Assembly: GCA_964017065.1 (NCBI GenBank)
Contig: OZ024790.1
Coordinates: forward strand, 9,808,403 to 9,872,402
Direction: 5' to 3'
Length of the DNA stretch: 64,000 bases
Source of the DNA: Haliclona indistincta
Lineage: Eukaryota; Porifera; Demospongiae; Haplosclerida; Chalinidae
The notes below the pieces were generated by a model. It saw nothing but the letters and a program-made list of their open reading frames with translations, did not search any database and was not told the origin of the DNA. The translations under genes and the position numbers were made by a program. Below, in pieces: positions 27,901 to 51,018 of the stretch; the first letter of the stretch is position 1, and each line of letters starts with the position of its first letter.

Positions 27901-30900
27901 CAGGTCTGCCTAGTCGCCTACGCATGCATGCAGTGCATACGAGCCCCGCCCACACTTGTTTGTAGACGGTTATAATTATCTGGCAAGTGCAGAATGGCGA
28001 TCCTACACGAGCTTACCGTTCTTCGAAGACTCCAGACAAATGCCGGGTGTGTGTTCTCCGTGATAGTGATCCACACGGCGCAGCGATACTTTAGCTGCTT
28101 TGTCACGTGCGCTACCCATTGCTTGGTCACGTGCGTATTGCGCAATCACAATAATGGCGTCTACAGTTGTTTTGCATAACGGAAGCTAAAGCGGAAGTAT
28201 GACGTTGGCCAATCAAACGCACGTAGGCGTAACTAACTGAAGCTGTACACGTGACGAATAGTGAATTTGATTGGTCAGCGTCACACTTCCGCTTTCGCTT
28301 CCGTTATGCAAGATCTTCGCAAACAACTGTAACACTAAGCTGACAATGGATCACGATCGAGAAATCGCGGAACTTAGATCGCCGTTACGCTAAAAACAAA
28401 GCTCAAAAGGCACATGCCAGGAGAATTTCACGACTGTTCGTGGATGTTTTGGTCTCGGCACTGCTAAGGCGCTAGGCGAGTGGAAGAAAGAAGAAGAATA
28501 AAAGAAGAAAACGAAGATGACGAAACTCGATTTTCACCGTTTCCAGGTTCGTCACTTTCGTAACAATTTCGATCAATCTCCTTGCTACTGTAAGATGGGG
28601 CAACGCCAGAGAGCAGATCTAAGTGTCTAAAGACGTATAAAATTCAACACCAGGCGAAATATCAGCGTTTGAACGCTAATACATTGTATGTAGCCGCCAT
28701 CTTGTTTTCTCGTTCATCCCTACATAGGGAGTCACTACCGTGCCTCCCTAATAGAGAGCTAACACTACAATGTGGATGCATGTCATGCTGAGGGTTATAT
28801 AAAATCTGTTTATGTTGTGTGTAACTGTTCTCAGGTGCTACTGGTTTACAGAACAGAAGCCTTATGGAAAGACATATACAACAGCATGGAAGTGTATACT
28901 TATTCTCGCTCAAATCTTTCTTCATTGGTCCTTCGTGTGTGGGTAAAACCACAGCTCTTCGCCGTCTTACTTATAAGATTACTCACATTTCACCAGACGA
29001 CATTGTCCCTAGTACTGGTATTGATGCTCCATTAACAGTCAATTTATATCATGAGACAGATCAGTCATCAGTGCTCTTATCTGAACATGGGTGGAAAAGT
29101 CTGGGACTTAGGGAGCAATGCCAGACTTTGTGTAGCCATGTTATCAACAATCCATTGCCACCACCTTCAAGCAGCTCTACCTTACCAATGAGACCATCCT
29201 TAGAATCTGCCTTGTCCATTTCTCCTACTCATATTGCCTCTTCCCCAAACATCTCCCCTGCATTCACCTGTTCTGAAGCAGCTGCATTTTCTGCTATGAG
29301 TATGCCAACTGATGAGTTAACTATTGCTCCTAATACTACAGCATCCATTGATGAGCTGACTACTACACACCATATTTATGATCCTATTGATGAGCCTAGT
29401 AATGAGCCTGCTATTGGTGATGATAAGCCTACTGATAAACCTACTGGTGATATGACTGATCTGATTGCTGAAATCTCCACACTTGTCAAAGATGAAGATT
29501 GGGAGTCTATCCGAGAGCCAACTGATGAGTTAACTATTGCTCCTAATACTACAGCATCCATTGATGAGCTTACTGATGAGCAAGATGATAAGCCTAATGA
29601 TAATACTACTGATGATATGACTGATCTTATTGCTGAAATGTCCACACTTGTCAAAGATGAAGATTGGGAGTCTATCCGAGAGTTACTTAAAGAGAGGGGT
29701 ATACTTGCATTCCTTCACATCATCGATATTGGAGGACAGCCAGAATGTCATGAGATTTTACCTCTGATACTACATGGCCTCGCACTTAATCTGATTTTTC
29801 TTAATGTGACACAAGACCTGGACTCACCCTACACTGTGGTGTACAGGACCAATAGCGGATACAGTCCCATCCAGTACAAGTCAGAATTTACCATCCGAGA
29901 GATCATCCAGCGTGCCCTCTGCAGCATTGCATCACTCCAGACCAGTCCAGACCACAAGCCGGCAGCCATTCTTGTTGGCACATACTTTGATCAAAGCAGT
30001 GAAGCGGATGTCTTAACTCTAGATCGATCAATTCAGGAAGCTTTCAAAGACACGAATTTCATGAAGAATGACATTCTGTATCAAGTCAATGAATCGGAAG
30101 TGGAGAAACGATACATTCATCCACTGAATAATGTCAGTAGTGACCCCAGTGACATAGAGAAACTTCGTCTGTTAATAACGGCCATTGTTCATCAACGCTT
30201 CACACCAGTTCCAGTACCAACGTCTACATTGTTACTTCATCTCATTCTGCGTCAGAAATTTGAGGTGAGAGGATGGTGCAGCTTAGAGGAATGTGTTGAG
30301 GTTGCCAAGAGCTGTCATATTTCAAGAAAAGATCTCCTTGGAGAGAATGGTGTTCTCCAGTTTCTTCATGACAGATTCGGCACCATCCTCTACTATCGTG
30401 GCTTGAAGATTGGTCAGCGTGTTATCATCAATCCAAATATCATCTTGGCCCCTACCACTGAGCTCTTTGTGTATGCATTTGGTACTAAAAAATCTGAACC
30501 TAATACAGCCAACACGATTCGTAGCACAGGAGAAATTTCTCAAAGTTTAATGCACAAGGTGTGCTCACAGAAAAGTATCGAGGAAGCTAATGATGAAAAA
30601 ATCCCAACTAGTGAGATTGTAGAGCTCCTGGCCTCTCGTCACATACTGTATGAGGATGCTAGATCAGCTAATGAGGAAACCACCTATTTCTTACCCAGCC
30701 TCCTTTTTCCCGACCATAATGTGGCCAAAGAATCCAGTGACCCTACCATTCTCTCTTGTCTATTCTATTCTCCAATACTCTTATGCCCTTCTACTGATTT
30801 TCTTCCTCTCGGTCTTTTTCCGGCCATAGTAGTCAAGCTGTCCCAAAAGACAATTTGGAGTCTAAACGAGTGTGAAAGATTCCGTAACAGAATTCGCTTT

Positions 30901-32218
30901 TATGTCCAGTACAGCAAAGAGAAGTTGCTTCATGTGGAGTTACGTGCCCTGTCAACTCATCTGGAGTTTCGTATTGTTCAATCTGACACTGCACCGGTCA
31001 ACCCTCGCTTGATACCACTAGTTCGCCGGGAACTGTGGAATGCTGTTACAGAAGTTTCATTGTCTTATCCACACACAGAAAACGTCAAGTGGAAATATGC
31101 GTTCTATTGTCCTTCTGCTGTGAGCTTAGGTGGTCACCCTCATCCTGCGAAGTGCAAGACAATGGAGGAACCACAAGATGTAGTGTGTTCTCTGCCTGAT
31201 TGTCACGGAGACAAAGTTACCCTAGAGGATAGACACAAGTGCTGGTTCAAGGTGAGTATAACAATAGTTATTATAGCTTTACAGACACACTACTGCACAC
31301 ACCAGTATTATTATAATTGTATTATAATGTATTGTTAGTAATAATAACATTTATTATAACTGTATACAGGAAATACAGATGACCATTGATCCTCACAAAG
31401 AGCTGAACAAATCAACTGAAAAGCCATGCCCTCTTCTCACAGTAAAGGAGGTTTTGGCAGCAACCATCAATGTCAGTGACTGGCATCAACTCGGATTACA
31501 ACTAAATCTTACAATGTGCCAGTTGAAAGAAATTGATGTTACCTATCATAAAGAGGGATTTAAAAGGATCAAAGCTGAGATGTTCGATACATGGCTGAAG
31601 AGTTCTTCCAGTGCATCTTGGGTTGACCTGATAAAAGCATTGAAGACCATTGGTGAAGATACTGTTGCCAGTGAAATTGAAGCAAGCTGCTCTATAGAGT
31701 CACTTGACACAACAGGTAATGTGCATGCATGCGGATTCTATTCATAATGTTAATTAAATTTCTGCTCTGGATTAACAGTTGTCAGCAGTTCTAGTGAAAC
31801 TATTGTTAGTAGTAGCGCTCACTCATTGAGTGGAACAGGTAAAACACATCATAATCTACATGCAACAATCATCAATTTTGTCTCCTTTTTAGACCAAATA
31901 GAAGCAAAGAGCTCAACTGCAAATGAAAATGACAAGACTGCATCAATGGCTGTGAGAGGTAATTCTGCAGAGTGCTCTATTAATTGCACATGATACTTAT
32001 GTATCGTATGACATGTTTTCATGTGATATACAGCTCGCTCCGGTCGACAATGTTCAGAGATTGAGCTGTCAGCAGTTGAAAGCATCCAAGAAAACAAACC
32101 AGAAGAGAAACAGGCATGCAAGAAGGATGTGTTAAAGAGCTGGCTTGGCATACTTGTAGTCATAGCAGTAGCAGTGGTGGTGGTGGCAGTAGTGATATTA
32201 GTAGCACTCACTCGTTGA
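21945..32218 (+). CDS. Ankyrin - Pro/Ser repeat - Roc-COR - Death - hydrophobic tail protein
   Basis: Six exons join in frame: 21945-25677, 28835-31251, 31370-31715, 31779-31838, 31893-31958 and 32034-32218. They total 6807 bp, 2268 codons plus stop. Residues about 50-500 hold 13 ankyrin repeats (alternating GALPLHIACLSGH and GWTLLHYASEGGH types). Residues about 520-1240 are the 25-residue Pro/Ser repeat. Exon 2 encodes Roc (P-loop GPSCVGKTT, G3 DIGGQPE, G4-like VGTYFDQ), an acidic linker with an internal duplication, and COR (LILRQKFEVRGWCSLEECVE). Exon 3 is a Death domain (DWHQLGLQLNLTMCQLKEID). Two small Ser-rich exons follow. The last exon ends in LGILVVIAVAVVVVAVVILV, long and hydrophobic enough for a membrane anchor, then ALTR and a stop. 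The ATG at 21945 is the first in frame. The 3.2-kb first intron is full of transposons. A signalling scaffold or immune role is inference from the family. Confidence 0.88.
23511..25650 (+). repeat. 75-bp coding tandem repeat, about 28 units
   Basis: The unit encodes EVLPSPSPSSSNSPSLPRNE followed by PSAQD. Variants alternate between LPSPSPSSS, LPLPPPPSS and LPLPPPSSS and between EPSAQ and EPTAQ. The regular alternation implies higher-order duplications. It forms a disordered spacer between the ankyrin block and Roc. The +1 frame (KYYLHHHHLVQIRLLYQEMN) is also open because the unit has no stop there, and is not a gene. Confidence 0.95.
24256..24320 (+). other. Frame-excursion inside the Pro/Ser repeat
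   Basis: Within one unit the peptide reads LSRWWWKYYLHHHHHVVVEV before returning to EVLPSPS. GAAGTATTACCTTCACCATC is read here in the +1 frame and then again in the normal frame, flanked by GGTGGTGGTGGAAG and CATGTGGTGGTGGAAG, which complement the ACCATCACCAT repeat core. The net length change preserves frame. Confidence 0.8.
25815..27000. mobile_element. Repeat R3: inverted-arm element in intron 1 of the ankyrin-Roc gene
   Basis: Bases about 26035-26310 and 26712-26990 are inverted copies of each other. Their ends carry TTAGCTTGTCGTACCCCC, and this end sequence also occurs a third time at about 27270-27293. The unpaired centre (26340-26710) begins GATGCATGCAAAAGGGTTAC and matches 62480-62770. 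The stretch before the left arm (25815-26000) matches 62064-62270, including TAGGCAACTTT and AATCGCATAGTGTGTCATNC. No transposase ORF, so it is non-autonomous. Confidence 0.75.
27380..28752. mobile_element. Repeat R1, full copy (~1.37 kb), empty of nested insertions
   Basis: The copy starts near AGAAATTAAAAAGATTTCTA and ends at CACTACCGTGCCTCCCTAAT. Its left 400 bp are a foldback: 27381-27560 is repeated inverted at 27600-27775. The same layout occurs at 38050-42720, where two further elements have been inserted. A short ORF (27689-27955, minus) and others inside it are not conserved between copies. It ends about 80 bp before the acceptor of the Roc exon. Confidence 0.8.
29305..29720 (+). repeat. 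213-bp tandem duplication in the Roc acidic linker
   Basis: Two adjacent copies begin at 29305 and 29518 with CCAACTGATGAGTTAACTAT, each ending in MTDLIAE(I/M)STLVKDEDWE. The 71-codon spacing keeps frame. The second copy has a shorter, altered middle. It lies between the P-loop and the G3 motif, so the Roc domain carries a long acidic insertion compared with typical Roc. Confidence 0.9.
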
Positions 32219-39361: not shown

Positions 39362-42067
39362 AAGTAACCGCGGGGGTTTTCGGAAAAACTTTTGGGTGTG
39401 GTCTAATCTTTTGTCTCTAGCTCAGCTTCAGCAGCACTTCATTGAACCAGACTAATATCGCTGAAAAGCCAAGGCAATGGGCTACTAAATTGAAGAGTTT
39501 GAATGTTCTCCACAGTGATTTCTAATTTTAATTCTTCGTTATCTTATGCTGTATGAAAAAGCATCAAAAATTAAGTGGGTGGGGTTTCCGGAAACGCGCG
39601 TATTCTTGTAAAAAACGGCTTTGTTCTTGTGTGTCAGCATGTGTCAAGACTTGGTAAAGATGTATTAAGGAGTTTTGATGTCACAGCAAGTATTGGAAAT
39701 GTGGAATATACCATGTGAGTATAAAAAATTGTAAACACAAAGTAAATAAAACTTTGTTGCCAGTTTGATGATTGAAATGCACTGAATTTGTGATTATTGT
39801 TACAGTAGCTGGTGACTGCTGGTCATTAGATGAATAAGAAAATTGTGTTTAGAAGAGTTTAACAGTACTTGCATATGAATCTTTTGCGTGCGCTTGGCTT
39901 CCTTTCAAATCCAGCACACCAATAATGAATTCCATCGACCGCATACATCTGCATCACTGTCACAGCCAATCCAGGCATCCTGGTTCTCATCATCATCATA
40001 CTCTGCCTTGCAAACATGGCACACATTCTCATTGACATCTAAAATTTTCAAAATGAATATCATAGTAATATTATAGACAAATTTTATCTTACCCTCTTTT
40101 TCTTCTCTTTGTTGTTGTTGTTTGTTTTTCCCCTTTTTCTTCTGTCTCTTCTTTCTCTTTCTCTTTAGCTGCCTTCTGTGCCTCCAATAACTCTACAAAC
40201 TCATCGGATGTGATGGCGTCACCTTCTACTCTGATTCTTAGATTGTTGCGCTGTCCTAGAGTTGGCTTGCTGGTTTGGATTTCCAGTATCCCAGCGAAGT
40301 ATGAAACTATCTGGGTTTTCAGTATCGGTGTTGTCGGTATCTGCTCACCACAGCTAGTGCAAGTGATGCGTTGGTGTCTTCTCGGTGACGCTGTTGTCTG
40401 GTGATCCTGGTGATCGTTAGTGTCTTGAGCAGTTGGGGGAAGCTTGTCAAGAACATGCTGACGAGAAAATGGAACAAGGCCTGCACTTTTAAAGCCACCT
40501 TTGGAGTGTGCTGTTGTAAAGGAAGCTTCCCACAATTCTGCAATTAGAGATGGAAAAACTTCCTTGCTTACTCTCTCTCCTCTTGTTTTCAGCTTGAATT
40601 TCTTCAGTATTTGCCTCCAGGCACTCTTGAGTGGTGCAAATACTCCAACATCCATTGGCTGTAAAAGATGCGTTGTATTTGGCGGTAGGCATAGGAGTAG
40701 CAAGTTCTTCTCTCTTGCTGTATTAATTAGCTCAAGGCTAATATGAGAATGGTGGCCGTCAAAGAAAAGAACGACTGGTGCTGTTTTTGTCAGGTGTGTC
40801 ACTGCTGGGATGAACAGCTTGTTGAACCAGGACAGGAAGTTGCTGGCATCCATCCAACCCGAATCATTCACTCCATAAAGTGCCCCAGCTGGTCCGCCCT
40901 CCATCCACCTCCGGTACAGATTTTTGCCTTTGTACAAGATGAATGGTGGTAAACGCTCTCCACTCCCACTTGCTGCACAATGGACAGTAATGAATTCATG
41001 TCCAGAACCACCACCTACTTCGTGTACAGCCTTTGCTCCTCTGCGTACTATTAGCTTTGTTGAGGATGAGGATGTGCAGAACCCTGTCTCATCGCAGTTC
41101 CACAGTCGGCACGCTATCCCTGGATCTGCCACGTTCAACCCTGCTTCGAGAAATGTTTTCTGCACCTGGTCAAACCATGCATCTATCACCTCTCTGCACC
41201 CGGCCCGTGCTCTCGCTTTTGACAAGTGTTGTGGCTTTCTTTCGCTAAGGATGGGCCACCTCTTCTTGAAGCGATTCCACCAATCCCTTCCCGGGATTCC
41301 ATTGGTGAATGGGTTGCTGATTTGCTTTTCTTCAAGATAGTCGTGGACGACTATGTCTACAATTTCTTTTGTACTCCCAAATCCAATATCAGCAAGTGCT
41401 ATGCATGACAGAACAATTTCTTGCTCCACCTGTCTACTCAGCACAGTCGACCCCCCTGCACCAACCTTCTTCACCTTCCCCTTTACGTGGTCGTCGAGCG
41501 TACTACATGTAGGTGGAATGCCATATTTTAATGCAACTCCATGCACGTTTGGTTCACTTTTACTCCGGCACTCTGCAATGGCTCTCTGGAGGTCCTCCGC
41601 ACTATACTTTCGTTTTGCTGCCATTGAAAAAATTCAAACAACTTTTTTTATTGCTGTGAAAAGCGCATGCGCGTTTGTTTATATAATGGAAAATACGATT
41701 TGTATTTAATACTACTGTTGACAGCATGCACGTGTGCAGCGGGCTCTGATTATTCTCGTACTGTTTTAAATGGTCAGTCTGCGTAGTTGCAGTTGGTTTT
41801 TATTGCATATCTGCATGCATTGGTAAAGTTGCAGTGCTGCAAGAAAGTTTTTTTAGCGATTTTTAACCGTATGCGTATGATTTGCCTAGCCTAATAGCAT
41901 GTTTGCAAATTTTCTGCAGCCACCTTATGTGGCCCAAAATAGCACTATGATAGGGCATGGTATTCACCAAATTTGGTAGCTGTGCGTTGCTTGTCTTGAG
42001 CTCAGCGTAGAAAAATCTCTTGAGTTTCCGGAAACCCCACCCTTTCCGGAAACCCCCGCGGTTACTT
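39362..42067 (-). mobile_element. Intact pogo/Tigger-like Tc1-mariner element, 2706 bp
   Basis: The terminal inverted repeats start AAGTAACCGCGGGGGTTT and match over 25 bp with one mismatch. The element is flanked on both sides by TA (39360-39361 and 42068-42069), the target duplication expected for Tc1-mariner. The corresponding site in the second R2 copy (47230-47270) is uninterrupted and reads GCGAACAGATAGAGTCC, giving a clean empty site. Subterminal GGTTTCCGGAAAC repeats lie inside both ends. One transposase ORF occupies the right half. The left 700 bp (39400-40088) show no gene. Confidence 0.92.
40089..41624 (-). CDS. Pogo/Tigger-like DDE transposase, full-length
   Basis: A single uninterrupted 511-codon ORF. 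The N-terminus (KYSAEDLQRAIAECRSK) has the form of a psq/CENP-B-type helix-turn-helix. A second DNA-binding stretch (PGRDWWNRFKKRWP) follows. The DDE_1 catalytic triad is readable: D178 in NCDETGF, D289 in FFDGHHSH and D325 in LLQPMDVGVF, giving a DD35D spacing. The C-terminus has a CTSCGE pair and a Lys/Glu-rich basic tail (TTTTKRRKRG), a likely nuclear signal. The ORF is inside well-matched TIRs and carries no lesion, so the element may be active or recently so. This is a transposon gene, not a host gene. Confidence 0.93.
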   Translation of the reverse strand: MAAKRKYSAEDLQRAIAECRSKSEPNVHGVALKYGIPPTCSTLDDHVKGKVKKVGAGGSTVLSRQVEQEIVLSCIALADIGFGSTKEIVDIVVHDYLEEKQISNPFTNGIPGRDWWNRFKKRWPILSERKPQHLSKARARAGCREVIDAWFDQVQKTFLEAGLNVADPGIACRLWNCDETGFCTSSSSTKLIVRRGAKAVHEVGGGSGHEFITVHCAASGSGERLPPFILYKGKNLYRRWMEGGPAGALYGVNDSGWMDASNFLSWFNKLFIPAVTHLTKTAPVVLFFDGHHSHISLELINTAREKNLLLLCLPPNTTHLLQPMDVGVFAPLKSAWRQILKKFKLKTRGERVSKEVFPSLIAELWEASFTTAHSKGGFKSAGLVPFSRQHVLDKLPPTAQDTNDHQDHQTTASPRRHQRITCTSCGEQIPTTPILKTQIVSYFAGILEIQTSKPTLGQRNNLRIRVEGDAITSDEFVELLEAQKAAKEKEKEETEEKGEKQTTTTKRRKRG

Positions 42068-44194: not shown

Positions 44195-47100
44195 TTAGTG
44201 CTGTTCTTTATCCAGCCATATCCTAATGTTAGTAGCTGTGTTATTTTCTTCAGCTATCTCAAGAGTGCTGATGATAGTATCCCATGTGTAGGGAACCTTT
44301 CCCTCTCGTTTCCACTGATTGAACACCTTTATGAAGAGACGAACTTGATCCGTGGTCTGTATCTCCAATGAGTCCAGTGTTGATGTTTCAATATCCAGCA
44401 GTACTCCTACCTCGTACCACTTGGTCGGTATCTTTTTAGCAACCAAGGTCATCAGATGAGCAGTTGATGGAGCTTGAGAATAGACTACTGACTTATCTGT
44501 CAAAAGAACTGCAGTATCCAGTGATAAAATTATTGTAACATGATATGGGTTGTGCTCACCAGCTGTTTTCTGTGGTACTGTTGAGGGATCTTGAGCTGCT
44601 GGTTCAGGAGGAGCTTTAGCTGCTGGTTCAGGAGGAGCTTGAGCTGCTGGTTCAGGAGGAGCTTTAGCTGCTGGTTCAGGAGGAGCTTGAGCTGCTGGTT
44701 CAGGAGGAGCTTGAGCTGCTGGTTCAGGAGGAGCTTGAGCTGCTGGTTCAGGAGGAGCTTGAACTGCTGGTTCAGGAGGAGCTTGAGCTGCTGGTTCAGG
44801 AGGAGCTTGAACTGCTGGTTCAGGAGGAGCTTGAACTGCTGGTTCAGGAGGAGCTTGAGCTGCTGGTTCAGGAGGAGCTTGAACTGCTGGTTCAGGAGGA
44901 GCTTGAACTGCTGGTTCAGGAGGAACTTGAGCTGCTGGTTCAGGAGGAGCTTGATCAGGAGGACCTTGAGCTGCTGGTTCAGGAGGAGCTTGAACTGCTG
45001 GTTCAGGAGGAGCTTGAACTGCTGGTTCAGGAGGAGCTTGAGCTGCTAGTTCAGGAGGAGCTTGAGCTGCTAGTTCAGGAGGAGCTTGAGCTGCTAGTTC
45101 AGGAGGAGCTTGAGCTGCTGGTTCAGGAGGAGCTTGAACTGCTGGTTCAGGAGGAGCTTGAACTGCTAGTTCAGGAGGAGTTTGACTTGCTGGTGGTATC
45201 ACAAGATCTGAATATATTAATATAATGCGTTATAGATCATAACATCAAGAGTTTAATACCTAAGACTAAATCCAACTGTCAGTTGATTTCAGGCGCATTT
45301 GAACATGGCATGTCCATGATAGCGCTTTATGGCCCTTTGTATAACTCTGCATGTGATCTACGGAAATGTTCAGATGACTTCCATCTATTCTCTACAATTA
45401 ATCTGAACAGTTTCCGTGGGTCACAGAGCTATACGCAGTGCTTACAACGGACCATGCACACAATGTTCAAAACACAACTGAAATCGACAGTGAATATCAT
45501 TAGCGTTGCAGCCACTATAATGCTGTCTGCTGTATAAACTTATGAGGTAGAAAATGCCCAACGCAGTCCAATGGGGCATGTTCCTTGCATATTATACATG
45601 TAGTAATAAATAAGACAATAATATAGCTACAGCACCTGAGTCAACGGTTTTTGATTTAGTTTTCTCATTTTCCATTTTATATGTACTTTGAGTTGAGCTT
45701 TTTGCTTCAGATTGCTCTTCTACTGTATGAAACAAAAATGCATGCACATTGCAGTATAGTATCATACTTGTTTCATCCAATGAGTCAGGCGCATGAATGC
45801 TATTACCATCAATAGAGCTGCTCACCTCTAAAAGAGCAGACACTCAACACATGACATCAACTCATGCTCATGCATTACCTGTTGTTTCAGGCAAATTCCC
45901 AGAGTGGCTAGCTTTAATTTTACCAGCGACACTGACCTCGCCTATAGACTTCAAAGCTGCAATCAGGTCAGGACAAGATGCACTAGGAGAGTTGTTTAGC
46001 CACAAGTCGAACATTTTAGACTTTATTCTTTCTACTAAATCTGCACGACAGGTAACCTCAATATCTTGTAACTGGCTCGTTGTAAGATTCAGTTGTAATC
46101 CGAGTGCACGCCAGTCAGTAACATCTTTGCATGCTGCTAGAAGCTTTTTCACTGTGAGAGAAGAACCTGAAAGTCACAGTAAAAGTATGGAATGTGCCAA
46201 CAACAGACATACCTTTTGGTTTCAGTTTAATCCCACTATCAAAATCCTTCTTTAAAATTTGTTCCGACAACAATCTGTACAGAGACAAGGTGAATACAAT
46301 GAAAATGGCAGCATGAATCTCACTTTTCCTTGTGGTGATCCTCTAATGCAACTGGTCCTCCGTGACAATCTGGTAGAGAACACACCACATCTTGTGGCAT
46401 CGTCTGGCAAAGATCTGCTATCAAAAAATATCACATTATATCAGACCTTTGAAACTGTTTTTATCAGACCTCGGTCACGATAATGTGCTTTATGTATAGA
46501 CTTATCGCATAACACAAATTCACGTCACTAGTGAACGATAAGTATGGTTAGACCTCGGTTTAGACAAGACCATGCAGAGTACTTGATATGTTATTAAATA
46601 CTAAGCTGGATTTCATTCAAAAGTGCATGCGTGTCAAAATAATCAGCCGTTTACAGAAACTTTTCAATCAGATGATACCAAGGGCGTATAGATGATACTA
46701 ACCAGGGTGGTCCACAAAATAATTAAGCACAGAGATATGTATAGGTTAGAGACCAAGGCCAAGGGATCTACGCGGTATAGAAACCCGAGGAAGCCATATA
46801 GAACCCGAGCGCGTAGCGCGAGGGTTCTATGGCGACGCGAGGGTTTCTATACCGCGTAGATCCCGTTGGTCGAGGTCTCTAACCGGCTTAGAGTATAGCA
46901 ACCGTTGCTATCCAACAAGGAATTTTCGACGCTGCGCAAATGTTTTGTAAAGAACACGGCCTTACTTCAGCGATGGGAAAACACAGGCGAGTTTAGCTAG
47001 AGTACGTCGCTACCGTGTCTTGTTACACCTTGCTGGCACTCTGTCTCGTCTCCTACCGTCCTTCCGCCATTGCTTTAGCGTCTGCTAGTGGCTTTCTGAC

Positions 47101-50100
47101 GCAACCAAAAGTTAGTTTCTGGAACTCACTCACGCTCACACGTGTACAAGCCTCACATCACGTGTTCTTGTAATAACAATTTTTATGGCTTGTTATGAAT
47201 GCACTTTCACTAAGCAAACTGTGGTCTATCTGTTCGCGGAAGGACTCTATCTGTTCGCGGATGGACTCTATCCGTTCGCGGATGGTCTCTACAGCAAATA
47301 GATCCTCGGATCTAATAAATCTGATTGGTCAATAACATTGAGCTATACTCTAATAAGCAATAGACAGGCGTATGTAGTTGTAATAACATTAATATAATTA
47401 TTCACAAATGCATGATACAAACTAACTAGTAATGTATCTCACCATGTGAAGCTGCTGCAAGTTCATGTTCTTGTGATGTCGAATTAGATAAACGATCTTG
47501 ATCAGCATCGGTTACATCCAACTTTTGATTTACAAACCATTGAAGCTTTTGGAGAGATTCTTGTTCGATTCCTTCTCCTGCCTTTACGGTTTCTGTGTCG
47601 AAACACCTATGGAGGTAGTGAGCCCAGCATTGCTTGCCAGTATCCATCTTGTCCTCCATCGACATAAGTACGTACGGGTTACCGATAGCAACGACAAGAC
47701 TCTTGGCTCTGGTGATGACTGTGTTGAAGACACTGGGACTGCACAGGCTCTTGGTCGGGTTAAGGGAACACCCTGATGGGTGCAGTGCTTCGACCGTGCT
47801 TATGAAGATGGCCTCAAACTCACGACCTATAAATTTATGATACTTCAGATCCAGGACTCATGCAGCTATAGTCTTTCATACTATACCTTGTATCGTATAT
47901 GTTGGGACCAGATGAGATTGTTCAAATGGCATCTTTAAAGCATTCTTTATATCAGACAACTGTAGCAGGAAAAACAATGGTCTTTATCTGCTCTTTATGA
48001 AGAAAATGACATTTTGTGAAGCAATACATTCATAAACAAGTACTCGGGGACAGATTCAGAAATGAGGAGAGAGGAATTGGCGTGGAAAGTTTGCTGCAAA
48101 TTGTGCTATTCGTTTTAACTTGTTCGCTGATTGCTCATGAAATTTAAGCACAAATCTCTGTCGCTAGCTAGCGCCTAGTCTCTTCTTTTTGTTGGTGTAA
48201 AAGCAGGTCTCACATCCAGTGTTATGTCATGCATGCACAACCAACCACCCCTGCATGGTATTATGCATTCACTCCACACAAAAGCAAAATTATCTAACCT
48301 GATGCTTATTGTTGGCTATGATGTAAACATTGTCCATCTGTCTCGGGTCTTTAAAGAAGGTTTTGATCTGCTTGACAAGGTTCTTGGCTTCATTTTCATC
48401 TGTTTCTACGTATTCATGAGATCTAGCTTTCTTCTCAAGACTTGAGCACACAAACCAGATTGGGTGAGCTATACCAGAAATGGTGTTTGAGTAGGCACGA
48501 GATTGCAAGCTCTGCGAATAAAATAGTGTTTGAGCAAGATAGACAATTTCCTTGTGGCAGCGATGATTGGTGTTGAGCACAGCTACTGGCAGGTGATACT
48601 GGTTATAGAACTCCCGGAGACGAGTGAAGAGTGATTTCGCTAATCCATTATCACGTGCTATGTCACCTAGCACCAAAATCTCTGGACCGACCTAGAGAAA
48701 TGTAATGGAGCAGGGTGAATTTGATAAAATGGTTTACCTGACGATCATCTCCAGCAATGACAATCTTTGTGTCTTGGTTGGCCATGCATAGAGGAGCAAC
48801 TGCCTCTGGCTCCCTAGCTTGAGCTGCTTCATCAAGAAGAATGTGGGTAAAGAACTTGCCACCAACAGTTGACTGGATGTTAAGGCCAGTAAGGAATGTA
48901 GTGACAATTACCACATAATTTTCTTGAGAGAATTCCCAAGAAAACATCTTTCGAAAATCATTTAAATTCTTGTACACGTGGTAATAATTGCTCTCGATAT
49001 GATAGCGAGCTCGAGTGATCCTGGCTAGCTTGACTCTCCATGGGTTGACCTTGTTCTGGACCATCCTGCCAAAGTACTCCTCAATGAATGTGTCTGCTGT
49101 ATTCTGATGATGGCAAGCAATGAGTACTCGAGTTGGCACCTTCTTCTGCTTTCCCTCTTCAATAAAGTGATATGTAGCTACTGCTAGCAGACGTGTCTTG
49201 CCTGTTCCAAATGCCCCAGATATAAGTACAGGAACTTGAGGCCGACTGCCGACTACCTTTCGAAGAGCAGGTTGCTGGCTCTCTGCGTCAAGATCTATGA
49301 AGTTGCATGTTAAGCGTGGCAAAGCTCGTAACAGACCATGATCACTATGCGCTGGATCTGGCATTATCTTGCAAATCTGATTGTTACTCAAGCTTCCTAA
49401 AGACTTGCGTAGGAGATCGAAATAGAAGTGTTTCACTTCGAATTTAACCCTGCAAATAACCATGTTAACGAGATCAAACCGAGCTTCTAGCTTTCTTGCT
49501 TCTTCGCCTTTGAACTCAATCAGCAGGAAATCATAGTGTTCGTACATATTTTGTGGCAGAATTGTAGCTGAGCACACATTTTTTCCGCTGCTCTGATCGA
49601 CGATAAAGAGATCATCGCTTGCTGCTTGACTGACATACATGATCTGGTCACCATTTATACCCGAAAGACAACCGTATCTGCTGTTAGGATCACCTCTTTT
49701 CACCCAAGATGGAATATTTTCATATATAGACAGTTGGTACTCACCATCGCACCTGATGATGCACAAATAAAAATAACTTTCATAATTAACTTTTATAAAA
49801 GTGATTTTAATCGCTTTTGATACATACCTGTCTGAAAGCAGTTTAGCATGTTCCTCTTCCTCAAAGTGAAGGAGAGAATTGAATTTTGACTGGTACTTTG
49901 TCAGGGCATCTTCAACTTTAGCTTCTGAGCTTGGTGCCGTCTTGACTATGGATGGGGCTCTGTAACTGACCTATGTAAACAGAATAATCAGATTTGATCA
50001 AAAAGTAGATTTGATCATTGAACGTACTGGTAGTACACTTTGCATTGGTGTTGGCCAGTCTGTTGTCATAGATTGCTGCTGCAGCTGCTGCCAACTAGAC

Positions 50101-51018
50101 ATTTCAGTTGCTGGTGCATGTTTAACTATAGCTTCAAGTCCCGAGCTTGGTGCCGTCTTGACTATGGGTGTGGTTCTGTAACCGTTGACCTATGTAAACA
50201 GAATGAGCAGATTTGATCACGGTATATTATACTGAGTAGATTTTGATCATTGAACGTACGGATCTCACAGGTACACTTTGCATTGGCGTTGGCCAGTCTG
50301 TTGTCATAGATTGCTGCAGCTGCTGCCTAGCTTCAAGTCCTGAATTTGGTGCCGTCTCAGTGGATGTTGTCCAGCTGTAACTGACCTATGTAAACGAATA
50401 AGCAGATTTGATCACGGTATATTATACTGAGTAGATTTTGATCATTGAACGTACTGGTAGTACACCTTGCATTGGCGTTGGCCAGTCTGTTGTCATAGAT
50501 TGCTGCAGCTGCTGCCAAGCTTCAAGTCCTGAATTTGGTGCCGTCTCAGTGGATGTTGTCCAGCTGTAACTGACCTATGTAAACGAATAAGCAGATTTGA
50601 TCAGTAAGTAGACTTTGATCATTGAACGTACGGGTCTTGGTACAGGTGCACTTTGTCTAGGCGTTGGCGAGTCTGGTATCATAGATTGATGTAGCTGCCT
50701 ATGAAAGCTTGGCGTTTCAGTTGCTGGTTGGTGCCTCATCTGGTCAAGCTGAGTATTCCAGGCAACCATCTCTTCCTGACTGTGTGCAAAAGTACACTGA
50801 GGTCCTCTACAAGTCACTCCTCCATTGCACAGCACGTATCTGCCACTTTGAAGAGGTGGATCGGGAAGGGGGCGTATTAGCGACCATGTGCTTTGTTTGA
50901 TACGCTGCCGTCCCTTTTTATTGCAGACCTCCTTAAATTCCTCATCTTGTGGATCGGTGTTAAAAGAAGTATCTCGATCACAAACATCGACAGTACGATA
51001 ACATTCTCTGTTGGCCAT
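44195..51018 (-). CDS. HELZ2-like CCCH zinc-finger SF1 helicase fused to two Death domains
   Basis: Fifteen exons read in frame: 51018-50632, 50574-50455, 50385-50260, 50189-50028, 49970-49828, 49752-48738, 48691-48299, 47959-47887, 47826-47443, 46417-46324, 46274-46213, 46166-45879, 45827-45768, 45722-45636 and 45207-44195; 4407 bp, 1468 codons plus stop. The N-terminus has a CCCH finger (CNGGVTCRGPQCTFAHSQEE). The helicase core has Walker A GAFGTGKTR, Walker B/II HILLDEAAQ, motif III GDDRQ, motif V YTIQGREFEAIFIS and motif VI VITRAKSL, as in UPF1/HELZ2-type SF1 RNA helicases. After the helicase come a short COR-tail remnant (PQDVVCSLPDCHG, almost identical to the ankyrin-Roc gene), a Death domain (DWRALGLQLNLTTSQLQDIE), a PPEPAAQA repeat, and a second Death domain (KWYEVGVLLDIETSTLDSLE). 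The exon 9 to 10 join spans a MITE and rests only on phase and splice signals. If wrong, these are two genes. Confidence 0.75.
44509..44559 (-). other. Possible 51-bp in-frame intron (exitron)
   Basis: Within the last exon of the helicase-Death gene, GTGAGC at 44559 and CTGCAG ending at 44509 bound a 51-bp segment with an intron-like AT-rich interior. Both retained and spliced forms keep frame and phase, removing 17 residues just ahead of the second Death domain. Confidence 0.5.
44591..45180 (-). repeat. 24-bp coding tandem repeat (PPEPAAQA), about 25 units
   Basis: The minus strand encodes eight-residue units PPEPAVQA, PPEPAAQA, PPELAAQA and PPEPAAKA. One unit is shortened (GPPDQAPPEP). It forms a Pro/Ala-rich spacer between the two Death domains. 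Confidence 0.95.
46742..47355. mobile_element. Hairpin-ended MITE R2, copy 2, uninterrupted
   Basis: Inverted copy of the element at 39249-42600 without the pogo insertion. Its foldback end lies at 46745-46890 and its CCGCGAACAGATAGAGTCC repeats (read on minus) at 47225-47290. It sits in the intron between helicase exon 9 and the COR-tail exon. Confidence 0.85.
50028..50574 (-). repeat. Tandemly duplicated exon-intron units in the helicase N-terminal region
   Basis: Exons 2, 3 and 4 of the helicase gene and their introns are copies of one another. Each encodes a variant of VSYSWTTSTETAPNSGLEA... ending QSMTTDWPTPMQ(S/G)V. Each is preceded by CATAG/GTC and followed by GTACGTTCAATGATCA. Exon 5's start (VSYRAPSIVKTAPSS) and exon 1's end (DSPTPRQSAPVP) belong to the same series. 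All are multiples of three, so copy number can change without frameshift. Confidence 0.9.

Follow-up and report, generated by a model that had tools for sequence, protein, structure and literature searches.

The 64,000-nucleotide (nt) stretch of DNA from the sponge Haliclona indistincta analysed here (C8:9808403-9872402 of the 144-Mb assembly; hereafter, the window) carries on its minus strand a gene for a predicted UPF1-like helicase of superfamily 1 (SF1), followed by a cassette of exons coding for a Death domain and a second, Death-like domain. The parts, their order, and their strand are read directly from the DNA, which also shows this order again at a second locus and the parent family of the cassette. 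Of the readings considered we hold it most likely, though with a confidence only just short of even, that the window encodes one protein in which the cassette is spliced to the helicase; the window is a plausible, differently ordered case of a helicase-Death protein with a putative join. Helicase-Death proteins in sponges, as a wider idea, have stronger support than the particular join in the window.

Domain composition of the helicase gene and the Death cassette

The gene model that includes helicase and cassette comprises 16 exons, or 1,448 codons when the stop is counted, as read from splice sites and frame (Table 1), rather than the 15 exons and 1,469 codons counted in the initial annotation; by our own arithmetic, reading the 45-nt in-frame intron 45767-45723 as coding gives 15 exons and 1,463 codons. 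The Pfam scan covered six pieces of the model, those of exons 1, 6, 7, 9, 12, and 16. AAA_11 scores 53.9 bits (cut-off 27) in piece 49760-48729, AAA_12 scores 40.3 bits (cut-off 27) in piece 48691-48290, and the closest solved structure is UPF1 (E value 5.1e-12). Exon 6 contains the motifs GAFGTGKT and DEAA, which we take to be SF1 helicase motifs. By these similarities, the helicase has an SF1, UPF1-like core of the HELZ/HELZ2 family. The initial label "HELZ2-type" fits this module but not HELZ2 proper, since no RNB domain was found in the six scanned pieces (the remaining model consists of short exons and repeats), whereas the paralogue L057 on C7 has one. The first exon encodes a putative CCCH-like zinc finger that scores below the cut-offs, and first exons look alike, by eye, among the helicase paralogues.

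All seven exons of the cassette are open in the window. The first Death domain (Death1) matches PF00531 at 38.3 bits (cut-off 22.6) in piece 46173-45868, and the second (Death2, piece 44500-44195) reaches 17.9 bits, below the cut-off. The predicted structure of Death2 has six helices at low confidence (mean predicted local distance difference test score, pLDDT, 56.2), and the top Foldseek match of this model, Fas-FADD, is weak (E value 1.2). The initial claim of two Death domains behind the helicase is right in the positions and in Death1, but Death2 stays below threshold.

Helicase-Death proteins in Amphimedon queenslandica

Predicted gene models of the sponge Amphimedon queenslandica, the nearest named organism in our protein search, contain helicase and Death in one chain. 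Specifically, AAA_11 and Death occur together in three of the 20 listed A. queenslandica proteins (P0002, P0011, and P0012), the combination that the initial annotation had proposed to seek in related sponges. P0011 and P0012 ("probable RNA helicase SDE3" and "probable helicase with zinc finger domain" at NCBI, "Death domain-containing protein" in UniRef) resemble the window in having an SF1 helicase of the same family together with Death (48.9 and 46 bits, respectively), and the window helicase is 30% identical to P0012 across the alignment. They differ from the window in that their Death domains are N-terminal, with a second death-like segment ahead of the helicase (two death segments in all), and in that they have no CCCH finger at an E value of 0.1. 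P0002 (UniRef A0A1X7V9J.., 1478 residues), like the window, has its best Death stretch, residues 1389-1442, on the C-terminal side; its Death score of 29.6 bits is for the whole protein, with no single stretch under an E value of 0.01. Unlike the window, P0002 also has a death-like segment at the N terminus, which scores 17.7 bits by itself, and its long middle part looks ZU5-like by eye and has no Pfam match. P0002 could itself be a merged gene model.

Helicase-Death proteins appear to exist in sponges, because these models combine the same kinds of parts as the window. The initial suggestion of Death combined with a HELZ-type helicase in a sponge is upheld as a general idea, while the join in the window is neither shown nor refuted. 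As a separate observation, the Amphimedon models P0009 and P0010 join the same helicase family to a protein kinase domain.

Origin of the cassette

Exon 10 shares 65.2-86.7% protein identity with L011-L016 and with window positions 31153-31239. The longest matches set in at 46413 or 46412, which is one or two bases into the exon if it starts at 46414; other matches set in at 46397. Judged by this homology, the cassette derives from a family of GTPase-like Death-Death genes, of which it retains the 3′ tail, with the break close to the putative acceptor. The family's large 5′ exon is gone from the cassette, the Death frames are still open, and the space between cassette and helicase consists of helicase flank and repeats.

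A member of the donor family lies in the window itself at 28825-31747 (plus strand), with a GTPase-like 837-residue exon followed by a Death domain. Two donor-family members were scanned: the large exon gives only a weak Roc match on window 28828-31335 (13.4 bits, cut-off 27), and L041, which is without the first part of the exon, gives no Roc or COR match. We use ROCO and COR for this family as presumptive labels. The term "COR-tail", applied initially to exon 10, has no Pfam support as a name, although the homology of exon 10 with the last part of the family's large exon is clear. Matches similar to Death1 are numerous around C8:9.58-9.91 Mb, and arrays rich in Death are present at C8:11.9-12.2 Mb.

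A second locus and the sister helicases

The helicase-to-Death order is repeated, on the same strand, at a second locus 160 kb away (C8:9691500-9701400). Protein identity between the loci is 93% for helicase exon 6 and 99% for Death1 (copy C8:9693922-9694206), the main DNA alignment blocks are 91-95% identical, and the second locus carries its own insert of ~426 nt. Helicase exons 6, 7, and 9, pooled between the loci, have a ratio of nonsynonymous to synonymous substitution rates (dN/dS) of 0.31 (dS 0.16, dN 0.049; by exon, 0.16 for exon 6, 0.54 for exon 7, and 0.96 for exon 9), and by this measure the three together are under purifying selection. Over its 95 codons, Death1 differs at one silent site and one changed site (dS 0.015). 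The aligned stretches contain two coding indels, one in exon 9 and one, in-frame, in exon 11, both 15 nt long.

The exon 6 search returned 24 places in the genome. In 11 of these 24, the reading frame was followed past the helicase core until it met a stop or another domain. Five copies (L019, L020, L022, L024, and L027) have a stop past the helicase core. Two others, L021 (C8:10139484) and L023 (C8:10135270), have a proline-rich tail and Filamin in one uninterrupted exon; the Filamin score is over the cut-off of 26.9 bits in L021 (28.9) and under it in L023 (22.7). L057 and L058 have long tails, with RNB confirmed for L057 only (166.7 bits). The helicase family is seen to gain new C-terminal domains, without need for a splice such as that proposed in the window. 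L057 (C7:412658-408930, minus strand), with its RNB and a sub-threshold HELZ2 OB fold, presents the HELZ2 layout elsewhere in this genome.

One spliced protein or two neighbouring genes

On the reading of one protein, donor 47442 would be joined to an exon start at 46417, 46414, or 46369, and the tail would be spliced on in at least part of the transcripts. A phase 1 end of exon 9 is possible at 47443, where GTGAGA follows, and the exons from 46417 on are in a fitting frame, as the initial annotation had stated. Splice sites were scored by leave-one-out with a matrix built from 11 distinct introns of the window gene model. The donor, at 5.86, is ordinary (leave-one-out range, 2.33-9.47), and the third acceptor, that of exon start 46369, scores 6.7 in the same phase. 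The donor motif GTRAGA is kept in all four close copies (window, L018, L019, and L020), and no AATAAA or ATTAAA occurs in the window between the TAG beyond the donor and exon 10. A dispersed repeat with at least 40 near-full copies, this one among them (94-97% identity for the rest; 370 candidates, of which 40 were scored), accounts for 616 of the 1,025 nt of the putative intron 9; without the repeat, the intron would measure ~409 nt, similar to intron 14 (428 nt). The spliced join is favoured because the arrangement is repeated, because the cassette is without the 5′ part of its parent, and because sister helicases carry C-terminal grafts. An apparent weakness of both join sites relative to the other 14 introns was an artefact, as those introns had trained the matrix; leave-one-out scoring placed the sites in range.

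Several observations weigh against the join. At the junction, acceptor 46417 is lowish (3.45; range, 2.14-7.95), acceptor 46414 falls below the range of the gene (0.68), and an equally good phase-compatible pair is expected by chance at p ~0.26 (donor space 214 nt, acceptor space 103 nt). Because of this last figure, the exact codon sum, offered initially in support of the join, was rejected as proof and is weak evidence only. The TAG lies 15 nt past the end of exon 9 and is common to three of the four close copies (the window, L018, and L020, not L019), and an ATG lies in frame within exon 10 at 46400. No similarity to the window's Death region was found in the 3.5 kb downstream of L020 or L019; L020 shares the helicase 3′ flank up to approximately window 46560. 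The gap at the second locus holds ATTAAA, and L019 has AATAAA soon past the helicase end. Only 371 nt separate the end of the presumed upstream gene from the helicase ATG, and a gap of ~400 nt may accordingly be ordinary between genes. Among the 11 copies read, Death follows in two (the window and L029).

The second locus adds to these points. Its Death2 is only 32% identical to that of the window, and its spacer exon would need an acceptor other than the window's. The non-coding difference between the loci drops along the locus (27/148, 20/313, 6/170, and ~5/331, the last by subtraction), and gene conversion may have copied the arrangement from one locus to the other; because of this suggestion, the loci do not count as two independent fusions or witnesses.

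Two neighbouring genes are a serious alternative, which we hold to be somewhat less likely than one protein. In this case the helicase would end at the TAG (47428-47426), and the cassette would start at ATG 46400 and encode a tandem-Death adaptor. The stop shared with L018 and L020, the lack of Death in the 3.5 kb behind L020, the in-frame ATG, and the compactness suggested by the 371-nt upstream spacing fit this arrangement, but a separate cassette gene would be without a native first exon, its large exon having been cut away, and the donor family uses the methionine of 46400 as an internal codon where it is present. Adjacency as such is cheap: Death matches in the genome number at least 150 (1372 candidates, of which 150 were scored), and one of the helicases, at C7:398959, has a Death domain 2.7 kb upstream, beyond what appears to be its own first exon. 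Two separate products could still act together without forming one chain.

It is improbable that the cassette is a dying, untranslated fragment of a GTPase-Death gene behind the helicase: the missing 5′ part, the sub-threshold Death2, and coding and non-coding substitution that are not clearly different within 46556-45636 (5/588 versus ~5/331) are set against seven open exons in the window, exons 10-14 of the second copy without a frame-breaking indel, a second-locus Death2 over the PF00531 cut-off (30.6 bits), and a Death1 dN/dS of 0.27-0.52 versus the donor family, though pairs inside that family span 0.14-1.52. A test for coding constraint on the cassette as a whole (5/588 coding versus 25/548 non-coding differences; Fisher p 1.2e-4) was dropped because 20 of the 25 non-coding differences are found from position 45614 downwards, which probably falls outside the converted tract.

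Relation to known helicase-death-fold systems

RIG-I-like receptors (RLRs) have a superfamily 2 (SF2) helicase. They resemble the putative fusion in combining a nucleic-acid helicase with death-fold domains, and differ from it in having a RIG-I C-terminal domain and N-terminal death folds, where the window has an SF1 helicase and C-terminal Death. The window gene matched UPF1-type SF1 families instead of SF2 DExD/H helicases, and no RIG-I C-terminal domain or CARD match was obtained at an E value of 0.1 in the six scanned pieces.

Helicases joined to death-related domains are already described (PMC8998645, PMC8195603). In particular, there are lophotrochozoan RLRs with a Death domain, their domains having been gained by exon grafting (PMC8998645), and fusions of TRADD-N to Mov10, DDX60, and RLRs in cnidarians and brachiopods, for which transposons have been proposed as the fusion agent (PMC8195603). 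The TRADD-N helicases are like the putative fusion in placing cell-death adaptor domains on RNA helicases, but they carry TRADD-N, usually with DED, in place of Death, and these proteins are neither HELZ-type nor members of the present sponge family. HELZ2, associated by the titles of two papers with interferon-linked defence against virus and LINE-1 (PMC5316548, PMC9839780), shares a same-family helicase module with the window gene and differs by its RNB domain. No HELZ-type helicase with Death was found described among the titles and abstract openings listed.

Coordinates and neighbouring features

Table 1. Features of the helicase gene and the Death cassette (positions in the window).
Feature	Position	Strand	Evidence
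Exon 1, start ATG 51018, CCCH-like zinc finger	50632..51018	-	Nab2-zf4 17.1 bits (cut-off 20), zf-CCCH 13.6 bits (cut-off 20.5), both below cut-off
Exons 2-5 (50574-50455, 50385-50260, 50189-50028, 49970-49828), repeated exons then linker to helicase	49828..50574	-	Splice sites, frame
Exon 6, RecA1 of SF1 helicase	48738..49752	-	AAA_11 53.9 bits; 24 genome places
Exon 7, RecA2	48299..48691	-	AAA_12 40.3 bits
Exons 8-9 (47959-47887, 47826-47443), end of helicase core and tail, phase 1 at putative donor	47443..47959	-	AAA_12 18.5 bits, cut-off 27
TAG closing helicase frame if donor 47442 is unused	47426..47428	-	Open frame end 47426
Dispersed repeat (like a miniature inverted-repeat transposable element) in putative intron 9, missing at second locus	46739..47354	-	Flanks contiguous in L029
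Short dispersed repeat just upstream of cassette	46438..46541	-	81% and 80% copies on C2 and C5
Putative exon 10, tail of large exon of GTPase-like Death-Death family	46324..46417	-	Acceptor AG 46419-46418 or 46416-46415
Putative exon 11	46213..46274	-	Splice sites, frame
Putative exon 12, Death domain 1	45879..46166	-	PF00531 38.3 bits
Putative exons 13-14 (45827-45768, 45722-45636)	45636..45827	-	Frame; 98.8 and 100% identical to second locus
Putative exon 15, PPEPAAQA repeat spacer	44560..45207	-	Translation
Putative exon 16, Death-like domain 2 and stop	44195..44496	-	PF00531 17.9 bits, below cut-off

Exons 2-5 resemble copies of one exon with similar short introns. Their best matches at the second locus are 96.8-98.7% identical, exons 2 and 3 having their best match at the same place, and the N-terminal part of the helicase seems to grow by exon duplication. 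Upstream, the minus-strand stretch 54000-51389 (the presumed upstream gene) contains exons resembling a GH31 alpha-glucosidase or alpha-xylosidase, with a best solved match at an E value of 0.068 and motifs that we take to be those of this family. Downstream, a 514-residue frame at 40092-41633 (minus strand) matches DDE_1 at 91.8 bits and is presumably a pogo-like transposase.

Implications

Under the reading of one spliced protein, a GTPase-like Death-Death gene would have contributed its 3′ tail to the helicase gene, placed immediately behind it in matching orientation, and the protein would run zinc finger, helicase, Death, proline-rich spacer, Death. From this order we infer a possible function: the helicase would bind foreign or aberrant RNA, its ATPase would drive a change or a filament that brings the C-terminal Death domains together, and the clustered Death domains would recruit Death-domain adaptors, giving a cell-death or inflammatory signal. 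More broadly, we put forward as a tentative scheme, somewhat short of an even chance, that Death has been attached to HELZ-type SF1 helicases several times in sponges, at one terminus or the other, making an RLR-like receptor class on an unrelated helicase; the window would then be a recent cassette capture, perhaps helped by transposons, beside sisters that captured Filamin.

If the join is real, sponges would have combined RNA-sensing helicase and death-fold signalling using a helicase family distinct from that of RIG-I, the same design would have been reached more than once, and captures of different domains (Death and Filamin) by one helicase family could be set against each other. Whether or not the window's join holds, the Amphimedon models open helicase-Death proteins to direct testing in a sponge whose genome is public.

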